A stretch of 40,166 bases of DNA, taken from a virus. This document shows positions 6,210 through 37,706 of the stretch, in pieces (the first letter of the stretch is position 1; every line of letters begins with the position of its first letter). The notes below the pieces were generated by a model. It searched no databases. It was given only the letters and a program-made list of their open reading frames with translations, and was not told the DNA's origin. A program made the position numbers and the translations under genes. The DNA lies in the IMG/VR virus record IMGVR_UViG_3300017613_001142, positions 64,001 to 104,166 of that record; one strand, given 5' to 3'.

Positions 6210-7031
6210 CTAAAATAACCCCTCTTCGCCATTCATATAGTTCGCCATATTCGTATTTGCGCTATAATCCAAGTCTGAATGCTGTTGTCTATTCTTTATT
6301 TCTTCGTCGGCGTCTTCCGTTGTGTCGTACTCAACCCCTAAACATATTAGATCGATAGCGTCGCAAGTGGAGTCGGCTTGATCGTCATGTGAGTGAGTCA
6401 TTAGCGCTGTGATTTTCCTATGTTCTTCTTTGTAGTCGTGTAGAAAATCAGCGTTTTTCGGTAAATAAACTAACCCGCTGGCTATTGACGGCGTTGCATT
6501 GTAAAACCGGACGACTTTTGATATATTCCGTTGAATCGGAATAATCGGAAATTTACCTTCGCGTCTAATACGTTGAACTATGGAAGAACCAGAACTTTTG
6601 TCTTCCATGAACATTGCGCGTAAAACGCCAGAATGTATATTTACGTTTTTATTCCAGAAACTTAAAACTTGTAATTCAAGCTCATAAGCTTCGATTTTAT
6701 CCCGATATTGATCTATTAAATACGCTCTGTTTCCAGCCGCGCCCCACAATTGAAGGACTGTAAAATCGTTGTTTTCTTTATCTTTCTGAGCCGTGTCAGC
6801 CGTTATTATGCGATAATCGAAATTCGGTAAAACTTCGTAATATTGCCACCACTCAGTTTTATAAATCCCGCCGCCCTTCGGACTCGGAGATTGCTGATAT
6901 TGACCGCTATAAACATGCGGATTAGTCCGTTCTAAAACCTCAAGTTCTTCAACAGTATGTTTGTATTTCCATAATGCGCCGGGTTTGAGATTGTGTTCAA
7001 TCGGAATTGCATGTGTGTATTTTTGAGACAT
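6210..7031 (-). CDS. Terminase large subunit, C-terminal nuclease part (separate cistron)
   Basis: This 273-residue protein starts MSQKYTHAIPIEHN and contains the region normally following the ATPase of a large terminase: ELEVLERTNPHVYSGQYQQ and GGGIYKTEWWQYY, then the RNase H-fold nuclease with YRIITADTAQKDKEN (Asp79), AMFMEDKSSGSS and the late acidic motif HSHDDQADSTCDAI. The ATPase part ends 11 bases upstream in a different frame. No clear ribosome site precedes this ATG, so it may depend on coupling to the upstream stop. Its job is cutting concatemeric DNA during packaging. Confidence 0.85.
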   Translation of the reverse strand: MSQKYTHAIPIEHNLKPGALWKYKHTVEELEVLERTNPHVYSGQYQQSPSPKGGGIYKTEWWQYYEVLPNFDYRIITADTAQKDKENNDFTVLQLWGAAGNRAYLIDQYRDKIEAYELELQVLSFWNKNVNIHSGVLRAMFMEDKSSGSSIVQRIRREGKFPIIPIQRNISKVVRFYNATPSIASGLVYLPKNADFLHDYKEEHRKITALMTHSHDDQADSTCDAIDLICLGVEYDTTEDADEEIKNRQQHSDLDYSANTNMANYMNGEEGLF

Positions 7032-7042
7032 TTCATATTAAA

Positions 7043-7783
7043 TTACGCCGCTATCAACGCCGGTAAACAAAGATGGTGCCACATGTCACCGTTTCCGCCG
7101 TTGAGTAAAAACCCGCTTAAATCTTCCTCATGGAGCCTTTGCATAATAACTATAATCGGGGTTGTCCTTTGTTGTTCTAAACGGCTATTTATTGTATCAT
7201 TCATCCATTCATTAACGCGGATGCGCTTAACATCTGAATAAGTATCTTGCGCCTTGATTGGATCATCAATAATTAACGCTCCGTTAAATCCTGGACCAGC
7301 TTTCCCCGCTCCAAATCCTATAATTTGACCTCCCGCTGAAACCGCGTATAAACCGCCGCCGTTCAATATGTTCCATCGTTTTTTGGCGGTTGAGTCCGGC
7401 CTAATTTCCAATCCCCATAAATAACGAAACTCTTCAGATTCAACGATATCTTTAATTTTCGATGAATTTTCTAAGGCTAAATCATCCGAATAACTACAAT
7501 GAAGAAAACGACATTCTTTATTTTTAGCAAAACACCAAGCGACAAATCCAACGACGGATAAAATTGTTTTCCCGTACCTTGGCGGAATATTGATAATTAA
7601 TCGTGTAATTTCCCCGTTATAAACTTTATGAAGAACATTTGCTATTAAAACATGGTGCGGATTTATCATGAATTTAATACGTTCCTGAATTTTAAAAAAA
7701 AATCTATTGAACTTCAATAAATCATCTTCCATAGCATGTTTCAAAGCTATCGGATTATGTTTTTTAAATATTTCAGGCGTCAT
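7043..7783 (-). CDS. Terminase large subunit, N-terminal ATPase part (separate cistron)
   Basis: A 246-residue packaging motor ATPase. Walker A is PPRYGKT (67-73) and Walker B is LIIDDP (170-175). SAGGQIIGFGAGKAGPGFNG and the late coupling motif IVIMQRLHEEDLSGFLL are typical of phage large terminases. The frame stops after LCLPALIAA, exactly where the linker to the nuclease begins. The nuclease follows as its own frame 11 bases later. Together the two cistrons cover a normal-length terminase. It follows the small terminase after 2 bases. Confidence 0.9.
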   Translation of the reverse strand: MTPEIFKKHNPIALKHAMEDDLLKFNRFFFKIQERIKFMINPHHVLIANVLHKVYNGEITRLIINIPPRYGKTILSVVGFVAWCFAKNKECRFLHCSYSDDLALENSSKIKDIVESEEFRYLWGLEIRPDSTAKKRWNILNGGGLYAVSAGGQIIGFGAGKAGPGFNGALIIDDPIKAQDTYSDVKRIRVNEWMNDTINSRLEQQRTTPIIVIMQRLHEEDLSGFLLNGGNGDMWHHLCLPALIAA

Positions 7784-13881: not shown

Positions 13882-15351
13882 TTATTCCCATTCTATAGTT
13901 CCCGGCGGTTTAGACGTTATGTCATAAACCACTCTGTTAATTTCTTCCACTTCGTTAACAATTCTGTTTGAAATTCTAGCCAATAAATCATGTGGCAATC
14001 GCGACCAGTCTGCGGTCATAGCGTCCACGGAGTCAACACAACGGATACAAATTGTATGCTGATATGTTCTGGCGTCTCCCATCACTCCAACTGATTTAAC
14101 TGGTAATAAAACGGCAAAAACTTGCCATATATCGTCATATAATCCGGCTTTTCTGATTTCATCAACCACGATAGAATCAGCCGCGCGTAAAATATCAAGT
14201 TTTTCTTCTGTAACTTCACCAATACATCGAATGGCTAAACCGGGGCCAGGGAAAGGATGTCTATTAATAATTTCATCCGACAATCCTAGCGCGCGGCCTA
14301 ACTCTCTAACCTCATCTTTAAACAACTCTTTTAGCGGCTCTATAAGCGTCATATTCATACTTTCAGGCAAGCCCCCGACATTATGATGGCTCTTAATTCC
14401 TTTTGATTCTATAACGTCTGAATAAAGTGTTCCTTGAGCTAAAAAGTTTATACCTTGAGAATTATCGGCTATTTCCTCGAAAGTTTTAATAAATATATCG
14501 CCAATAATTTTTCGTTTGTCTTCCGGCGACGATACCCACTCTAAATTATCTAAAAACCTTGAACTAGCGTCAATGAAAACAGGATTAAAACGTTTAATAA
14601 TTTCGTCCGCTTCACCTTCCCTTAATAAACCATTGTCTACAAATACACATATTAACTGATCACCAATCGCCCGTTTTAATAAAGCCGCCGTTACCGCCGA
14701 ATCAACGCCGCCACTTAAAGCGCATAAAACCGTTTCTTTGCCGACTTGATCTTTGATTTCTTTAACTTTTTTGTCAATGATTGCGCTCATAATCCAATTG
14801 GAGGCACATCCGCAAACACTAAAAATAAACGCGCCTATAATATACTTCCCGCATTCGGTATGTGAAACTTCAGGATGAAATTGTAGCCCATGAAATTTTC
14901 TTTTCATATCAACAATAGACGCATATATATTATTATCACTCTCGGCTACAATGTCAAAACCATCCGGCAATGATTCAATCGTATCTCCATGACTCATCCA
15001 AACAGAATTTTTCTCGCGCGGTTTATCAATTGTGATAACATTAGTTTGTCCATATTCCTGCTTTGCTCCACGAATCACTTTGCCGCCCAGCAATTTTACC
15101 ATCAACTGCATTCCATAACAAATACCTAAAACCGGGATTCCGGCGTTAAATATTTCGTCGTCGATAGTTGGCGCATTATCATCTAAAACCGAAGCGGGAC
15201 CACCTGACAAGATGATCCCTTTAGGTTTAGCTGACAAAATTTCATCAAGCGGCGTTTGCCAGTGTGTGATCTCACAATAAACTTTTTGTTCTCGTATTCG
15301 TCGAGCTATTAATTGTGTGTATTGCGATCCGAAGTCGATTATTTTTATCAT
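13882..15351 (-). CDS. guaA: GMP synthetase (glutamine-hydrolysing), complete
   Basis: Makes GMP from XMP, ATP and glutamine. The 489-residue protein has both domains. The class I glutamine amidotransferase has Cys78 in GICYGMQL and the His159/Glu161 pair in [11 protein letters not shown]. The ATP-pyrophosphatase has the PP-loop SGGVDS (213-218). The C-terminal dimerisation domain has [35 protein letters not shown] and ends [10 protein letters not shown], as in bacterial GuaA. I chose the ATG at 15351 ([13 protein letters not shown]); an ATG 30 bases upstream adds ten residues. All catalytic residues are present, so the enzyme should work. A complete guaA in a phage is uncommon. Confidence 0.95.
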
Positions 15352-15397
15352 AAAATTGTATCCGAAACTAAATGTTTCCAATTATCATCAATCATAT

Positions 15398-24560: not shown

Positions 24561-25535
24561 ATGCTAACATACAAAAATAGCGGCGTTGATATAGACACAG
24601 CCGACGCCACAAAACAAGAAATAGCCAAACATATTCAAACCACAGACGCTAGAGTTTTAAATAAGCTTGGCGCGTTCGCTTCATTGTTTAAAGCTGATTT
24701 TCCTAGAATAAAAAACCCTGTTTTAGTTTTTAAAACTGAGGAGCCAGGGAGCAAACAACTTTTAGCCGCGCAACATGGAAAACTATCAAGTATAGCTTAT
24801 GATCTAATTAATCATTTAATCAATGATATTATTGTGATGGGAGCGACGCCGTTAGCGGTTTTAGACACTATTATTTGCGGCAAAATCGAAAAAGATGTGG
24901 TCTCCGATCTAGTTGAACACATGGCTAACGCTTGCCGTTTGCAAAACTGTTCTCTAGTTGGCGGCGAAACTTCCGAACAACCCGGAGTTATTCGGGAAGG
25001 CCGATATATATTGTCAGCCGCTGGAATTGGAGTGGTTGATCAAAGTCAGATTATTGATGGCTCTAAAATTCAGGAAGGGGACATAATTATTGGCGTTGAG
25101 TCTAACGGGTTGCACACAAACGGATATTCCCTTGTTAGGCGGCTGTTATATGATATTCCTGATTTATCTCGTAATATGTCATTTATTGATGCTGTTCTAA
25201 AGCCACATTTGTGCTATTATCAAGCGGTTAAAGGAATACGAAGTATAATAAATGGTATGGCTCATATTACCGGTGGCGGGATAGATGGCAATATTAAAAG
25301 AATTATGCCTAATGGGTTGGGAGCTAAAATTAAATGGGATAAAATTATTGACGCCGCGCCTTTAGTTTTTTGCCAGATACAAAATGAAGGAGTTCCAATT
25401 ACTGATATGAAAAGAACTTTCAACATGGGTATCGGATTATGTTTGATGGTTAAGAAAAAACATAAAAATTTAGCTTTGGATTATATTTACAGCAATGGCT
25501 ATGAAGCTAATATCATAGGCGAAATTATAAAATGA
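24561..25535 (+). CDS. purM: Phosphoribosylformylglycinamidine cyclo-ligase (AIR synthetase)
   Basis: Closes the imidazole ring in step five of purine synthesis, using ATP. The 324-residue protein has GVDIDTADATKQ, LINDIIVMGATPLAVLDTI, LVGGETSEQPGVI, ESNGLHTNGYSLVRRLL, MAHITGGGIDGNIKRIMPNG, and MKRTFNMGIGLCL. It has TEEPGSKQLLA where many PurM proteins have a DGVGTK motif, a variant seen in some bacterial PurMs, as far as I recall. The length is normal and nothing is broken. With GuaA at 13882 the phage covers one early and one late purine step. Confidence 0.9.
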   Translation: MLTYKNSGVDIDTADATKQEIAKHIQTTDARVLNKLGAFASLFKADFPRIKNPVLVFKTEEPGSKQLLAAQHGKLSSIAYDLINHLINDIIVMGATPLAVLDTIICGKIEKDVVSDLVEHMANACRLQNCSLVGGETSEQPGVIREGRYILSAAGIGVVDQSQIIDGSKIQEGDIIIGVESNGLHTNGYSLVRRLLYDIPDLSRNMSFIDAVLKPHLCYYQAVKGIRSIINGMAHITGGGIDGNIKRIMPNGLGAKIKWDKIIDAAPLVFCQIQNEGVPITDMKRTFNMGIGLCLMVKKKHKNLALDYIYSNGYEANIIGEIIK

Positions 25536-29308: not shown

Positions 29309-29330
29309 CCCCTAAATTAAACTTTATTGC

Positions 29331-29365
29331 AAAAAAAAATCCCGACAGCCTAAACCGCCGGGATT
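29331..29365 (-). terminator. Terminator with nine-T tail (minus strand)
   Basis: On the minus strand AATCCCG (29365-29359) and CGGGATT (29344-29338) form a stem, followed by nine T (29339-29331). It ends the transcript coming from the tRNA/lipoprotein region, just before promoter copy F starts the next unit. From here to 29464 (about 100 bp) I see no gene longer than 15 codons. Confidence 0.8.
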
Positions 29366-29464
29366 CAATATCCAAAGTTAAAAATGCCAACTTCGGATTT
29401 AACCCAAATTCTTATACTGACAATCGCAGTGTTTTATTGCCTGCATAAGATGTTTGGATAGCCT

Positions 29465-29673
29465 TTAACCTTTTGCGTTTTTATAAAAAACACTTAATTC
29501 TTTCCAGCTCTCACAGTCTAAAAAATTCCGCTTCAAATACCATGAGCCGCCGTCAACCGCCAAATTTTTGCATGAACACCATTTAAAATCATGCCTATGA
29601 TGACTATTATAATGTCATTACATATCAGACACAAAGCCTGATTTATGCGAATATTACCTTTTATGGACTCCAT
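29465..29673 (-). pseudogene. Zinc-type phage protein with one-base frameshift (about 69 codons)
   Basis: The first frame from ATG 29673 reads MESIKGNIRINQALCLICND (CLIC pair) and then loses homology. The other frame, from about 29597, reads NSHHRHDFKWCSCKNLAVDG and continues GGSWYLKRN, CESWKELSVFYKNAKG. The halves together match a common phage protein type: C-X2-C, then RHDF-x-WCSC and VDGG. The 209-base span is one short of a multiple of three, consistent with a single-base deletion near 29595 (ATT-AT-AAT-AGT). Either a sequencing/assembly slip or real decay. Confidence 0.55.
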
Positions 29674-30393: not shown

Positions 30394-30465
30394 TACCCTA
30401 TCGGAGAATCGAACTCCGGCTTGATGATCGAAAGTCAGATGTACTAACCACTATACTAAGTCGGC
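30394..30465 (-). tRNA. Degenerate tRNA-like element, Glu (TTC) anticodon
   Basis: The T-arm (CGGAG, TTCGATT, CTCCG) and D-arm (GTAT/GTAC) are good and the loop CTTTCGA would give anticodon TTC (Glu). But the acceptor halves GCCGACT and ATAGGGT pair at only four of seven positions and the anticodon stem TCTGA/TCATC has two mismatches. It is in the tRNA array, in the same orientation. It may be a decayed tRNA gene or a non-standard RNA. Confidence 0.55.
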
Positions 30466-31747: not shown

Positions 31748-31972
31748 TTATTCAGCCTCTTCAATTTCCTCTTGAGTTATAATTTTGGCGTCAACGCCGG
31801 ATTCCAAAATCATGTCAATCGTATCGCCGATTGCCCCCATTCCGTAAGTTCTCAATTCGTCCGGCGTCGCGCCTGTGATTTTCTCAACAATACTAGAATC
31901 GATTTCCATTTTAAACCAATCACGGATACCCTCGTCTTCCAAAACTTTTAAGATTAATTCTTTGTATTCCAT
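31748..31972 (-). CDS. Small acidic hypothetical protein (74 aa)
   Basis: Starts MEYKELILKVLEDEGIRDWF; helical, acidic, ending KIITQEEIEEAE. No domain recognised. First gene under promoter copy G, with ribosome site AAAGGAG 7-8 bases upstream, and followed by the membrane and exported proteins, which may form one operon of three. Confidence 0.6.
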   Translation of the reverse strand: MEYKELILKVLEDEGIRDWFKMEIDSSIVEKITGATPDELRTYGMGAIGDTIDMILESGVDAKIITQEEIEEAE

Positions 31973-32012: not shown

Positions 32013-32055
32013 GATTTGTTAAAACTATCATCTCTAACTAAAACCATTCTGTCAA
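32013..32055 (-). promoter_or_regulatory. Repeated promoter cassette, copy G
   Basis: On the minus strand TTGACA (32055-32050) is followed after 29 bases by AACAAATC (32020-32013), a variant of the decamer, and GATGAT lies 17 bases after the -35. The leader then reads ATAATCGTTAAAGGAGTTTA to the ATG at 31972. It lies directly after a terminator (32060-32084), so it starts a separate unit. Confidence 0.6.
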
Positions 32056-32057
32056 CA

Positions 32058-32192
32058 TGAAAAAGCCGCCCCGAAAGACGGCTTCAAGAATTTCAAATAC
32101 TAGCGTTGACCGATTTAAAAACCTGATATTGGTCAATAATCAAGTTTCGATTCAACCGTTTCCGGTAAATATACGCCGATATTAAGAAGTAG
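32058..32192 (-). ncRNA. Candidate small noncoding RNA (about 135 nt)
   Basis: Between a strong promoter (TTGACA at 32227-32222, TAATCT at 32204-32199) and a T-tailed terminator (32084-32060) lies about 135 bp with no reading frame longer than a few codons. Predicted structure: a hairpin ACCG-GAAA-CGGT with a GNRA-type loop (near 32158), a longer arm TTGACC/GGTCAA (near 32132-32108) and the terminator hairpin. This is the usual shape of a phage small RNA. It sits in the gap 32086-32246, which otherwise holds nothing. Confidence 0.55.
32060..32084 (-). terminator. Terminator of the small RNA unit (minus strand)
   Basis: On the minus strand AAGCCG (32084-32079), loop, CGGCTT (32068-32063), then a T-run into the next promoter (TTTTTCATG). 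It ends the small noncoding transcript from 32192. Confidence 0.75.
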
Positions 32193-32198
32193 ACATAT

Positions 32199-32227
32199 AG
32201 ATTATGAGTTTGATTTGTTTTTGTCAA
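32199..32227 (-). promoter_or_regulatory. Promoter for the candidate small RNA
   Basis: On the minus strand TTGACA (32227-32222), 17-base spacer, TAATCT (32204-32199). It points away from the gene ending at 32247 and toward the terminator at 32060-32084. No coding frame follows. Confidence 0.65.
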
Positions 32228-32246: not shown

Positions 32247-32486
32247 TTAACACTCTCTATTTCTATGCGACTGACTTAGTTGTTTTTTTCCTTTCTGATA
32301 ATAACATGAATTAATGAAGTCAATATTATTCAAGCCGCATATTTCAAAATCATCTATCGTTTGTTGCGGAATATTCAAAACTTCCGCGTTCTCAGTCCAT
32401 TCAATATCACTAAGTTTCATTTTATTGATTCTTTGTCGTTCCGATTGCATCCATCTGACATACTCGATTGCTATTTGTGTTTTCAT
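32247..32486 (-). CDS. Hypothetical protein (79 aa)
   Basis: Starts MKTQIAIEYVRWMQSERQRI. Helical, with a basic ending (KGKKQLSQSHRNREC). TTGGAAAA lies before the ATG. Likely in the operon of 32489-39276. No family recognised. Confidence 0.6.
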   Translation of the reverse strand: MKTQIAIEYVRWMQSERQRINKMKLSDIEWTENAEVLNIPQQTIDDFEICGLNNIDFINSCYYQKGKKQLSQSHRNREC

Positions 32487-32788: not shown

Positions 32789-35700
32789 TTAACTACATCC
32801 CTGGCTCATCCCGCAAGTGACGCAAACGAAACAATTTCCGGTTCTTAAAAAATCTATGCTTCCACATTCTGAGCAAGGCGCATTGTTGCCGGAATCAATA
32901 TTTTGAGTGATTGGTTTATATTCAATTTCTTCTGATTCCGGCGCGTCTGGAATGAATTGTTTGGTGTTATTTAAATAGTGATATGACAAAATCCTAAACA
33001 CGGCGTCGAGCAAAGATGTAGCCATTTTTAACTGTGAATGTCCTTTGACAATGCCATGTGGCTCGAACTTAGTGAATGAAAATTTATCAACAAGCGTCTG
33101 TAATGATACCCCGGTTTGAAGCGCGTAAGATACTGATATGGCGAACTGATTCATTAATGATCTGACTGTTGACCCTTCTTTGTATTCCAAATCAATCCAA
33201 ATTTCTCCAAGTGTCCCGTCTTCATATTCACCGCTTCTTAAATAAAGTTTAGTCCCCCCGACTTTAAAACGCCATCGACGGCCAACACATTCGGCTGGAA
33301 GTTTGCGAGATTCGCCCCACTTGAGCTTAGGTATATCGTGTCCTAAGATTTCATCAACATTCTGTGAATGCTCTTTAGATATTTGAGTTAATACTTCGTC
33401 AACATCCTTTTTCTTCTCGACATTTAAAGGCTGTGAAGATTTAGAACCGTCCCGATAAACTGTGATCGCCTTTAATCCAAGTTTCCATGACTTCATGAAT
33501 ATATCCCATATGTCTTGGACTGTTGCGTCATGCGGCACATTCACCGTTTTGGATATAGCCCCGCTTAAAAACGGCTGAACAGCCGCAAGCATTTTAATAT
33601 GCCCATCACTTGAAATAAAACGTTTTCCGTTTCCGCTTGGCATGGCGCAGTCGAAAATTGGAAGATATTTTTCGCTTAATTTCCCTTCAATAGTATTATT
33701 TTCAGTGATATATTTAAGCATATCTTTGATTTGATAATCAGTAAATCCTGAAACTCTTAAAACTTCCTCAACCGACTGATTAACCATCTGAATTGAACCG
33801 CCGCCCGCTAACTTCTTATGACTAACAAGTGAAAAAGCTGGCTCTATCCCTGTTGTGTCGCAATCCATTAAAAGTCCTGTTGTCCCGACGGGAGCCAAAA
33901 GTGATGTTTGAGCGTTGCGGTAAGATTTATTTTTAACATTATCCCATATTTCTAGCACGTTATCATGTAAATAATCCAAATTTTCAGGAATGTCATTTTC
34001 AACTAACCTGCCACTGCAATTACTGTGAAACCCAATAACGTCTAGCATGCTATTTTGATTCTCTTTAAACTTCTGAAATGCTCCCAATTTTTCAGCAAGT
34101 TCCGCGCTAGTTTCATAAGCCGTCCCCGTCATAATCGAAGTAATCAAAGCGGCTAATGTTCTTCCTTCATCGCTGTCGTAAGGATAACCGGCAAGCATTA
34201 AAAGCGTTCCTAAATTGCTATAGCCTAACCCTAACGGTCTAAATTCATGGGAGTTTTTAGCAATTTCTTTTGTGGGATAGCTACCCAAATCGACTAAAAT
34301 ATCTTGAGCTGTTATAAAAATACGAACAGCGCGACGGAATGATTCAACGTCAAATTTTCCATCTTTCCAGAATTTTACGAGGTTGAGACTTGCGAGATTG
34401 CAAGCTGAATTATTTAAAAAAGAAAATTCCGAGCAGGGGTTAGTGCTTTCTTGTCTTCCTGATTCTTTGCAAGTATTCCATTTATTAATAGTAGTATCAA
34501 ATTGAATCCCAGGATCAGCAACCCTCCACGCCGCTTGACAAATAGCTGTAAAAATATCTCTCGCTTTATGAGTTTGATAAACTTTCCCATCCGTCCGATT
34601 AGTTGTTTGCCAATCGCCGTCTTCCTCCACTGCTTTCATAAACTCGTCGGTTAGCCTGACGGCATTATTGCTATTCTGGCCGCTAACAGTCGCATAAGCT
34701 TCGCCATTAAAATCAGAGTCATAACCTTGTTTTATAAGAGCTTCGGCTTTTTCTTCTTCTTTGATTTTCCAGTTAATGAAATCTAATATTTCTGGATGAT
34801 CGGCGTCTAAAGCCCTGAGTACCGCAGCCCTGCGAGTATTATGGACGAACACTCCACGCCCTTCAAAACTATCTAATTTAGCATTTGAGTTGCCGATTAA
34901 AAAATTATGGTTGTCAAATTCGTCTCGTGTTTCTATTGTTTTACATTCAACTTGTACATCATAAACAATCTGTGATTCTATTGGTTCAACTTTTAAAACT
35001 TTATGGTTTCTTGACTCTAATTCCTTGTAAAAATGATCATAATTTTTAAAATAACGATGCAAAGCAGATCCCCATGTTTGTTGTTCTTTGGGGCTAAACC
35101 CACTTTTATATTTTTTTACATAATAATCGTGACGTGATGCAAGAAATTTTGTTTGTGTGCTTATATCATATCCAATATTGATTAAATGGTATGCAGAATT
35201 CAGCATTTTAGATGATGTTGAGTTGCGACGCATAGTCTGGCGTTGTTCTTCTGTTCTATTAAGTAGCAATTCGCTTTGTTTTTTCTTGTAAGATGCTACT
35301 TTTTCTTTGTTTTTCCAGAAAGCAGCATTTTTATGCATTGCATTGTTTGCTCCTTTTTTGGGGAATTTTTGATTTGAAAAGATGTGTTTTCCTTGAGCTT
35401 TTTGAATTGCAATGCTCTTGCGACCTATAGCCTGTTTAACTTCTTTGGGTGTTAAATCTTTATGTAATTTGCCATGATCAGCAAAAGACATAGTCTTTAA
35501 ATTATTGACAGCATTATTTAATCTATTATGATCAACATGGTGAACAATTTTATTGTCAATGTCATTATCTAAAATATCACGCGCTAAAATTCTATGCATT
35601 TTCATATGCAAAGATTTCGGTAACCTAAATTGAGCATAACCGTCTTTGGAGATTTGACTATACGCCGCTTCTAATCTCATGCCAACTTTCAATTGATCAG

Positions 35701-36646
35701 CCGCTAAATATCTTTGATCTTTTAATAAAAAGGGGTGATCATGTGAAACTTCAAAAACTCCTTTGTCAGTAGTGACACGAACACATTTTTTAACGCTACT
35801 TTGAAAAGCTTGAGCTTTTTTGGCTTCGATGCGATCTTTAAGAATATTTTTAGAAAAGCAGATAAAATTTTTGTCCACTAAATCTACAACACGATTATAT
35901 CCTTCATTAGTCAATATTGGAGTATTAGCAGTCAAACAAGTTCCCCCACTCTTAATAGCACCAGCCGCCGAATCTAAAACTTTCAAAAAACTAATCAGCC
36001 CAGAACTCTTGCCACCACCAGCTAAATTCTCATGAGCGGCGCGCAACGTTGACATATTGGCACCTGAACCACCGCCATACTTAAAAATACTCGCTTCATT
36101 CTTAACCAACTCAAATATACTTAAAAGGTCATCTTCAACGCTCTGAATAAAACAAGCCGACGCTTGTGGTCTTTCATATTGATTTGCTGGTTGCCCAAAA
36201 CCATCAACCCCATCAAAAGCCCAATTCTGACCAGTCCCTGCAATTTTGTACTTATGCCAAAGACCGACATTAAACCAAACAGGGCTATTAAACGCGCCGT
36301 ATTGATTGATTAAAAGCCATTTGAGATCATTATTAAAATTAATAGCGTCATCGCCTTGAAAGTAACGTTGCTCTAACCCAAAAGCGGTTATGGTATCAGT
36401 AATGCGCTCAACAACCTGTTTCAAACTCCATTCATGACCACGTTCATTAGGAACGCCGGATTTACGACAATATTTTGAAGCAAAAATATCAGTCGCGAGC
36501 TGGCTCCAAGGCTTTGGAACTTCAACGCCTTTCATTTCAAACTTAACATTTCCTTCGGCGTCTGTAATTTTCGAGTCTCTAATATCCCATTCGACAGAGT
36601 CATAAACGTCGCCGTCTTGAGTGTGAAAATATTTTTCAAATTTCAT
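32789..36646 (-). CDS. nrdJ: Class II (B12-dependent) ribonucleotide reductase with intein
   Basis: Makes deoxynucleotides using adenosylcobalamin. The start is 36646 (MKFEKYFHTQDGDVYDSVEW), after AAGGA. Extein motifs: FNSPVWFNVGLW, SACFIQSVEDDLLSIFELVK, GGGSGANMSTLRA, NPCSEFSFLNNSACNLASLN (catalytic Cys and the NPC motif), LAPVGTTGLLMDCDTTGIEP and, near the end, MATSLLDAVFRILSYHYL and CSECGSIDFL with CFVCVTCGMSQGCS (redox Cys/zinc tail). The intein (residues 237-603) is spliced out, leaving about 918 residues, normal for long NrdJ. The host must provide or import B12. Confidence 0.95.
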   Translation of the reverse strand: MKFEKYFHTQDGDVYDSVEWDIRDSKITDAEGNVKFEMKGVEVPKPWSQLATDIFASKYCRKSGVPNERGHEWSLKQVVERITDTITAFGLEQRYFQGDDAINFNNDLKWLLINQYGAFNSPVWFNVGLWHKYKIAGTGQNWAFDGVDGFGQPANQYERPQASACFIQSVEDDLLSIFELVKNEASIFKYGGGSGANMSTLRAAHENLAGGGKSSGLISFLKVLDSAAGAIKSGGTCLTANTPILTNEGYNRVVDLVDKNFICFSKNILKDRIEAKKAQAFQSSVKKCVRVTTDKGVFEVSHDHPFLLKDQRYLAADQLKVGMRLEAAYSQISKDGYAQFRLPKSLHMKMHRILARDILDNDIDNKIVHHVDHNRLNNAVNNLKTMSFADHGKLHKDLTPKEVKQAIGRKSIAIQKAQGKHIFSNQKFPKKGANNAMHKNAAFWKNKEKVASYKKKQSELLLNRTEEQRQTMRRNSTSSKMLNSAYHLINIGYDISTQTKFLASRHDYYVKKYKSGFSPKEQQTWGSALHRYFKNYDHFYKELESRNHKVLKVEPIESQIVYDVQVECKTIETRDEFDNHNFLIGNSNAKLDSFEGRGVFVHNTRRAAVLRALDADHPEILDFINWKIKEEEKAEALIKQGYDSDFNGEAYATVSGQNSNNAVRLTDEFMKAVEEDGDWQTTNRTDGKVYQTHKARDIFTAICQAAWRVADPGIQFDTTINKWNTCKESGRQESTNPCSEFSFLNNSACNLASLNLVKFWKDGKFDVESFRRAVRIFITAQDILVDLGSYPTKEIAKNSHEFRPLGLGYSNLGTLLMLAGYPYDSDEGRTLAALITSIMTGTAYETSAELAEKLGAFQKFKENQNSMLDVIGFHSNCSGRLVENDIPENLDYLHDNVLEIWDNVKNKSYRNAQTSLLAPVGTTGLLMDCDTTGIEPAFSLVSHKKLAGGGSIQMVNQSVEEVLRVSGFTDYQIKDMLKYITENNTIEGKLSEKYLPIFDCAMPSGNGKRFISSDGHIKMLAAVQPFLSGAISKTVNVPHDATVQDIWDIFMKSWKLGLKAITVYRDGSKSSQPLNVEKKKDVDEVLTQISKEHSQNVDEILGHDIPKLKWGESRKLPAECVGRRWRFKVGGTKLYLRSGEYEDGTLGEIWIDLEYKEGSTVRSLMNQFAISVSYALQTGVSLQTLVDKFSFTKFEPHGIVKGHSQLKMATSLLDAVFRILSYHYLNNTKQFIPDAPESEEIEYKPITQNIDSGNNAPCSECGSIDFLRTGNCFVCVTCGMSQGCS
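34838..35938 (-). mobile_element. Intein with HNH homing endonuclease in nrdJ (367 aa)
   Basis: Starts at Cys (CLTANTPILTNEGYNRVVDL, block A) between IKSGGT and TRRAAVL, and ends VFVHN before Thr+1. Block B is GVFEVSHDHPFLLKDQRYL; blocks F/G are YDVQVECKTIETRDEFDNHN and GVFVHN. The middle has an HNH motif, VHHVDHNRLNNAVNNLKTM, with KLHKDLTPKEVKQAIGR near it. The junctions are in frame in the conserved reductase text, so splicing should restore it. HNH inteins are a known class in phage reductases. Confidence 0.93.
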
Positions 36647-37706
36647 TAATATCCTTAAAAGCAAGTTTGTAAATAAGTGGCAAAATATCTTTATCGTCTA
36701 ATTTTGCAAATAAATATGGAGCGTATTCTTTATGGGTTTTCATCACCCACAAAGCAAATTCTTTTCTAGTTATTTTTGGCGCGCACTCGAATAAAGCGTC
36801 TACATCCCTTAAAGTTCTTAAAATAATATCTTCAATCACTTCAATATGTTCATTCACATCATCAATAAATTCATCCGGGATAACATCTAAAATCGCCTGA
36901 ATATTATCATTTATATACGCTTCGAGCGTGTTTTTAAAAGAAATATTATGGATGATTTTATGAACTCTAAGATATTCTTTGCCTTTAAATTTAAAACGTT
37001 GTCCATCTTGGAACTCAACAACCCAACCTTCTGAATGGTAAGGTAAAGTTTCTAACCGATTAACAATATCTTGAATATTGTCAAATTCATAACGTTTCGG
37101 CAATGGGAATCCAAAAAACTTCGCTATAGCAACCAAAATTTTATCTTCAAGATATCCGCCAGTGATTTTATTCCGAACACCTATTAAATATAATGCTGTG
37201 TTTTGGCCATAATCGATTACAATTCTATTTTCAGGATAAATTATTTCAAACAAAAATGTCCACTGATTAAAATCGTCAAGTAAATTATCTATTCCTCTTA
37301 AATCATAGGTTCTATTAAAAAACTCAGTCGCCCATTGCGCTTGATCACCGTCAAAACTTCCGCGCGTCGCGATTTTAAATCCATCATCACGATATAAAAT
37401 ACCCAAAGAGCCATCAAGTTTTTCAGTAATCGTTTTTATAGGCGCGTTTGTAGTTCTGTTATTTTCCCCCCAATTAAAAAATTTATCAAATGGACGCGCG
37501 ACAATTTCACCTGTTTTTTTATTAATGATTAGACCACGGCTGACACGCTCCAAAAAATTCCATCTTCCTTCATATTGTGCTTCGTTGAGATAATTAAATA
37601 GGATTAGATCATCTTTTTCTTTAGTGTAGACATGACCAAAATCGCGCCAATCCTGAAAGCCATCAACAACTAGCTTTTGAATGTTTGATATTTTATTGAT
37701 TTCCAT
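36636..37706 (-). CDS. RNA ligase (T4 Rnl1-like)
   Basis: The 356-residue protein is a covalent nucleotidyltransferase. Motif I is TEKLDGSLGILY with Lys96 as AMP acceptor. Motif III is TFLFEIIYPENRIVIDYG. Motif IV/V: SEGWVVEFQDGQRFKFKGKE. The N-terminal part (SRGLIINKKTGEIVARPFDK, FFNWGENN) is typical of Rnl1. The C-terminal domain differs from the T4 anticodon-binding domain. It may repair tRNAs cut by host anticodon nucleases, consistent with the tRNA cluster in the same region. Its end overlaps the nrdJ start. Confidence 0.88.
   Translation of the reverse strand: MEINKISNIQKLVVDGFQDWRDFGHVYTKEKDDLILFNYLNEAQYEGRWNFLERVSRGLIINKKTGEIVARPFDKFFNWGENNRTTNAPIKTITEKLDGSLGILYRDDGFKIATRGSFDGDQAQWATEFFNRTYDLRGIDNLLDDFNQWTFLFEIIYPENRIVIDYGQNTALYLIGVRNKITGGYLEDKILVAIAKFFGFPLPKRYEFDNIQDIVNRLETLPYHSEGWVVEFQDGQRFKFKGKEYLRVHKIIHNISFKNTLEAYINDNIQAILDVIPDEFIDDVNEHIEVIEDIILRTLRDVDALFECAPKITRKEFALWVMKTHKEYAPYLFAKLDDKDILPLIYKLAFKDINEI

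Follow-up and report, generated by a model that had tools for sequence, protein, structure and literature searches.

Does the gap between two operons of a tailed phage hold a small RNA gene of its own, or only the end of one operon and the start of the next? The question arises in a 104,166-bp IMG/VR virus record, of which bases 64001-104166 form the window (the whole stretch of DNA that was analysed, 40,166 nt; coordinates are those of the window unless a locus is named). The record may be incomplete, and the virus is known from metagenome sequence alone. The portal, terminase, head protease, tail tape-measure and replication genes indicate a tailed phage, and the whole, possibly incomplete record yielded no tyrosine or serine recombinase, so the phage is presumed to be lytic. 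Its terminase large subunit is split: two neighbouring frames (6210-7031 and 7043-7783, minus strand) match consecutive segments of a single profile. The phage also carries glutamate dehydrogenase (L013 15588-16964, minus strand), GMP synthase (13882-15381, minus strand) and AIR synthetase (24561-25535, plus strand), which are unusual nitrogen and purine metabolism genes for a phage.

Setting and transcription signals of the locus

The stretch of interest, here called unit A, is flanked by two operons on its own (minus) strand. The genes upstream are those for a class II ribonucleotide reductase and two small ones, the last of which encodes 79 aa (32247-32486) and has no relatives found; single-sequence searches with this neighbour and with the reductase returned none. 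The downstream operon begins with a 74-aa gene (31748-31972, no relatives in phages), followed by genes for 102 and 179 aa and then by tRNAs. The reductase gene (32789-36664, minus strand) is interrupted at about residues 241-609 by an HNH-containing insert, which is probably an intein and which is missing from the reductase of the related locus L002. Among the tRNAs, a fifth (30394-30465, minus strand) was found by Rfam and missed by ARAGORN. Behind the tRNA cluster there is a long noncoding gap (29313-29660, minus strand) with a strong terminator (29366-29337), a TATAAT-like site and a folding z of -4.4, possibly a larger noncoding RNA.

The promoter-like site of unit A lies in the 274-bp gap between the two operons, and all the elements that a preliminary description had assigned to a small RNA unit were found in their places on the minus strand. 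The predicted promoter (32199-32227) consists of TTGACA (32227-32222), a 17-bp spacer and TAATCT (32204-32199), and the -35 with this spacing lies 20 bp past the stop codon of the last upstream gene. It had been called consensus-like, which is true of the perfect -35 alone and not of the -10, which agrees with TATAAT at 3/6 positions only. Host-type promoters with poor -10 elements nevertheless look normal in this phage, because the same layout, in which TTGACA and a 17-bp spacer lead to a poor -10 (xAxxxT), precedes many of its genes as predicted promoters (for instance at G000 coordinates 749, 13937, 18506, 76026, 76708 and 93308). These recurring promoters often have AATTTAATTTAGGGG first; TTTAACGARTCGC comes after them, and the predicted mRNA often carries a small hairpin at its 5' end. 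A separate leader, TTGACAGCTATTTAACGGGAGGAGGAG, is conserved directly before the starts of several small genes (L014 about 12840, 13393, 13636 and 15173, minus strand).

Judged by the distance from the -10, transcription would start at about 32194-32190, giving a predicted noncoding RNA of about 135 nt (32057-32192, minus strand), of which about 107 nt precede the terminator. The T-tailed terminator of the preliminary description was borne out as an intrinsic terminator of 10 pairs at 32085-32062 (GAAGCCGTC-TTTCGG-GGCGGCTTT) with the tail TTTTTC. The same can be said of the missing coding frame: no ATG frame was found in the RNA, and the only frame noted has 20 codons, with a TTG start and without a convincing ribosome-binding site. 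The next operon has a promoter of its own, a member of the recurring class (32027-32055, minus strand; TTGACA, 17 bp, GATGAT, then TTTTAAC), which sits 7 bp past the terminator.

The main rival to a small RNA gene starts from this arrangement. In this view the ribonucleotide-reductase operon simply ends here in a structured 3' region, with an insulating terminator and a chance TTGACA upstream, and any short RNA is a 3'-end fragment. The terminator lies exactly between the two operons and directly before the next promoter, the -10 of unit A is poor, and at the matching position of L002 a hairpin is followed by a promoter, with no small-RNA unit. Conversely, a chance TTGACA would have to be perfect, correctly spaced and close behind the stop codon, the stretch is more than 100 nt longer than a terminator needs, and a second unit in the genome (unit B, below) repeats both the layout and a hairpin. 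This reading is unlikely, if less so than any of the other rivals considered here.

Predicted fold of the RNA

The whole of unit A has a minimum free energy of -36.5 kcal/mol (z -3.4 vs shuffles), and without the terminator the 5' domain retains -22.4 kcal/mol (z -2.3), a modest value; the terminator accounts for much of the folding excess. The fold ranks 12th among 192 tiles over the larger gaps of the phage, and several other terminator-bearing gaps fold as well as unit A. Within the 5' domain, a closing stem, P1, pairs 32188-32173 with 32106-32092 (probability 0.6-1.0), and a second arm, P3, pairs 32154-32139 with 32127-32107 (0.3-0.97, its outer part just 0.3-0.65); P1 and P3 together span 32092-32188 on the minus strand. 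Between them stands a GAAA-capped hairpin, AUUU-ACCG-GAAA-CGGU(U)GAAU (32151-32170, minus strand), the core of which, ACCG-GAAA-CGGU at 32166-32155, is formed by pairing of 32166-32163 with 32158-32155 (probability 0.76-0.99). Thus, the GAAA-capped hairpin and the second long arm (about 32154-32107) of the preliminary description are both present in the predicted fold; P1 and the hairpin are well determined, and the outer long arm is less so.

The fold bears on a second rival, in which unit A is an attenuation leader: transcription would start at 32192, mostly halt at 32062 and read through under regulation into the gene at 31748-31972. A promoter, a structured leader and a terminator before a gene are what riboswitches and attenuators have, and unit B, with no evident promoter behind its terminator, fits this scheme better. 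For unit A, however, the scheme is made less likely by the separate promoter directly behind the terminator and by a terminator helix that is near certain (pair probabilities 0.73-1.0), with the upstream domain folding apart from it. As no riboswitch family was matched in Rfam either, attenuation is very unlikely here.

Comparable units and a shared hairpin

To place unit A among its like, units were counted, each being an exact TTGACA-17-TANNNT promoter with a strict intrinsic terminator no more than 200 nt downstream. This criterion was set after unit A had been seen, so unit A is not independent evidence, while units B, C and D are. The 104-kb record holds 9 strict terminators, 14 such promoters and four units, whereas 519 kb of related loci hold 51 terminators, 64 promoters and a single unit (4/9 vs 1/51 units per terminator, Fisher p 0.001). 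Dinucleotide shuffles of the record (n=12) gave 0 units.

Unit B is a noncoding stretch of about 190 nt behind a helicase gene (L013 9524-9302, minus strand; the same coordinates in G000). Unit C comprises two tandem hairpins (L014 9190 to about 9080, minus strand) and unit D one hairpin (L014 19315-19215, minus strand). These last two are weaker candidates, because unit C has only a few bases between its predicted start and its first hairpin, while unit D overlaps a gene's stop codon. Unit D also displays the terminator-promoter boundary expected if unit A were the 3' end of the reductase operon. Units C and D were considered as relatives of unit A and set aside, having no sequence similarity to it.

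Units A and B, by comparison, align locally over 24 columns (ATTT-ACCGGAAACGGTTGAATCG and ATTTGATCGAAACCGGTTGAATCG; unit B taken as L013 9302-9489), and this shared 24-nt hairpin ends in CGGUUGAAUCG. The alignment was equalled by 13/3000 and 2/1000 shuffles, or about 0.03 when corrected for the ten pairs tried. The 3' arm, CGGUUGAAU, is present in both and can form 8 pairs and a bulged U in unit A and 9 pairs in unit B; as read from the sequences, the two hairpins differ by one C-G to U-G change. The minimum-energy fold of unit A holds the core of the hairpin and that of unit B all of it. An 11-mer within it, CGGTTGAATCG (32148-32158, minus strand, in unit A), has two exact copies only in both strands of the 104-kb record, one in each unit, at 69 nt (A) and 60 nt (B) after the -35. 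The similarity is suggestive, not proof, because other genome windows match unit A at the same score by chance. The shared hairpin is the sole unusual point of unit A. As a side observation, roughly 10 pairs could form between unit B and TTGACAGCTAT, with G-U pairs allowed, which may be due to chance.

These comparisons bear on two further rivals. In one, the promoter-like and terminator sequences came together by accident and no functional RNA exists. No homologue was found (see below) and the fold is ordinary, both of which would suit an accident; the enrichment of units over related loci and shuffles and the recurrence of the hairpin in unit B argue against it, and it is about as improbable as attenuation. 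In the other, the short transcript is a primer or origin transcript and not a regulator. Short promoter-to-terminator transcripts do occur at some plasmid and phage origins, but no iteron-like repeats were found around units A and B and several such units exist in this genome, which leaves a role in replication the least probable of all.

Conservation, targets and probable function

Searches for relatives of unit A gave nothing beyond the record itself. Rfam assigned no family at gathering or relaxed thresholds; the only sub-threshold match was RNAI (E 0.39), over the 3' part and the terminator. In 50,697 annotated phages there was no homologue, just terminator-like or chance matches of 25-29 nt. 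Across IMG/VR, an exact 23-mer of the RNA had no match, and the promoter-plus-motif and hairpin patterns gave one match each, both chance matches inside protein genes on different contigs. A single-sequence covariance model of the 5' domain, run on 33 records, returned itself and noise alone, and none of the 32 records with a shared neighbouring gene family gave a homologue. With a model of the hairpin, units A and B alone stood out, as they must by construction; the best other match (L031, 21 bits) was rejected, as it lies within a protein gene.

The closest relative, L002, has proteins with 76% identity to the 179-aa protein, 71% to the 102-aa protein and 64% to the larger part of the reductase. 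Its order is reductase, promoter, 102-aa gene and 179-aa gene, so both of these downstream genes are kept, and the two small genes, unit A and the 74-aa gene are absent there. Unit A thus lies in a stretch that is variable between relatives. Target prediction, which the preliminary description had proposed as a check, was run against 170 phage gene starts and yielded no target above shuffled RNAs, 24/40 of which did as well.

From the promoter-like and terminator sequences, the missing coding frame, the shared hairpin and the separate downstream promoter, all read from the sequence, we infer an RNA that would be made, be stable and act in trans. The preferred reading, to which a probability of about 0.55 can be given, is that 32227-32057 on the minus strand is a small noncoding phage gene, a short transcription unit whose product is most likely trans-acting. 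Host RNA polymerase would start at about 32192 and make an RNA of roughly 135 nt, whose 5' domain (closing stem, GAAA-capped hairpin and long arm) would resemble a three-way junction. The transcript would stop at its own intrinsic terminator, and the next operon would restart from the separate promoter directly behind. Read-through from the upstream ribonucleotide-reductase operon would end at this terminator too, which means that the RNA could accumulate as the 3' end of that operon as well. The proposal of a standalone small RNA gene in the preliminary description is strengthened by a second unit sharing the hairpin, by the separate promoter after the terminator, by the frequency of units per terminator, by a fold above shuffles and by precedents in other phages, and it is weakened by the poor -10, by the lack of homologues and of a phage target in the searches above and by a fold that is ordinary for a terminator-bearing gap.

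As to function, base pairing or protein binding by the RNA in trans would be the most likely. Together, units A and B would most likely target other RNAs or an RNA-binding protein, with the CGGUUGAAUCG hairpin as the recognition part. A bolder version would take the RNA genes built around this hairpin, at least units A and B, for a new family of phage RNAs that have one partner in common, possibly imitating the T-arm of tRNAs and acting on a tRNA- or ribosome-binding factor; this is speculative and improbable, though not to the degree of attenuation. The hairpin GGUUGAAUC was rejected as a true T-arm, since its loop is one base short of GGUUCGAAUC and its stem has no continuation.

Unit A resembles small RNAs of virulent phages in several respects. 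Bands C and D of T4 are, like unit A, small noncoding RNAs of a virulent phage. In T4 they belong to the tRNA cluster, whose transcript is processed to release them, whereas unit A stands about 1.2 kb upstream of the tRNAs, with a promoter-like site and a terminator of its own. The virulent Pseudomonas phage PAK_P3 makes two RNAs of about 100 nt, sRNA1 and sRNA2, found by RNA sequencing and with no function assigned; sRNA1 lies in a 200-bp gap near tRNA genes, and sRNA2 holds an 11-nt stretch known from tRNA T-loops (PMC4933390). Two RNAs in one genome, in intergenic gaps near tRNA genes, are a likeness to the present phage, and the T-loop stretch has a distant counterpart in the hairpin GGUUGAAUC, which is remotely like the T-arm GGUUCGAAUC. 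Unlike the PAK_P3 RNAs, unit A is known here from sequence alone, and a search of annotated phages found no real similarity to it. Noncoding transcripts also occur in Herelleviridae (PMC10383478). Lambda PreS and other prophage-derived trans-acting sRNAs are short RNAs encoded between genes (PMC12197685) whose trans action falls on mRNAs of the host or of the phage, and a trans action is proposed for unit A as well; several of them differ from unit A in having known targets and a known need for Hfq. The earlier remark that standalone small RNAs are rarely described in lytic phages is therefore fair, although the T4, PAK_P3 and Herelleviridae RNAs are precedents.

Knowledge of small RNAs in virulent phages goes back to T4 bands C and D (as cited in PMC4933390), with no function assigned so far. 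Unit A probably adds one more case to this known but poorly understood group. If no RNA is made from it, the locus would serve as a caution: where operons meet, promoter-like and terminator sequences can mimic small-RNA genes. With several such noncoding units in one phage, two of which share a hairpin, the defined motif of units A and B can be sought in transcriptomes of infection and can serve as bait for a binding partner.
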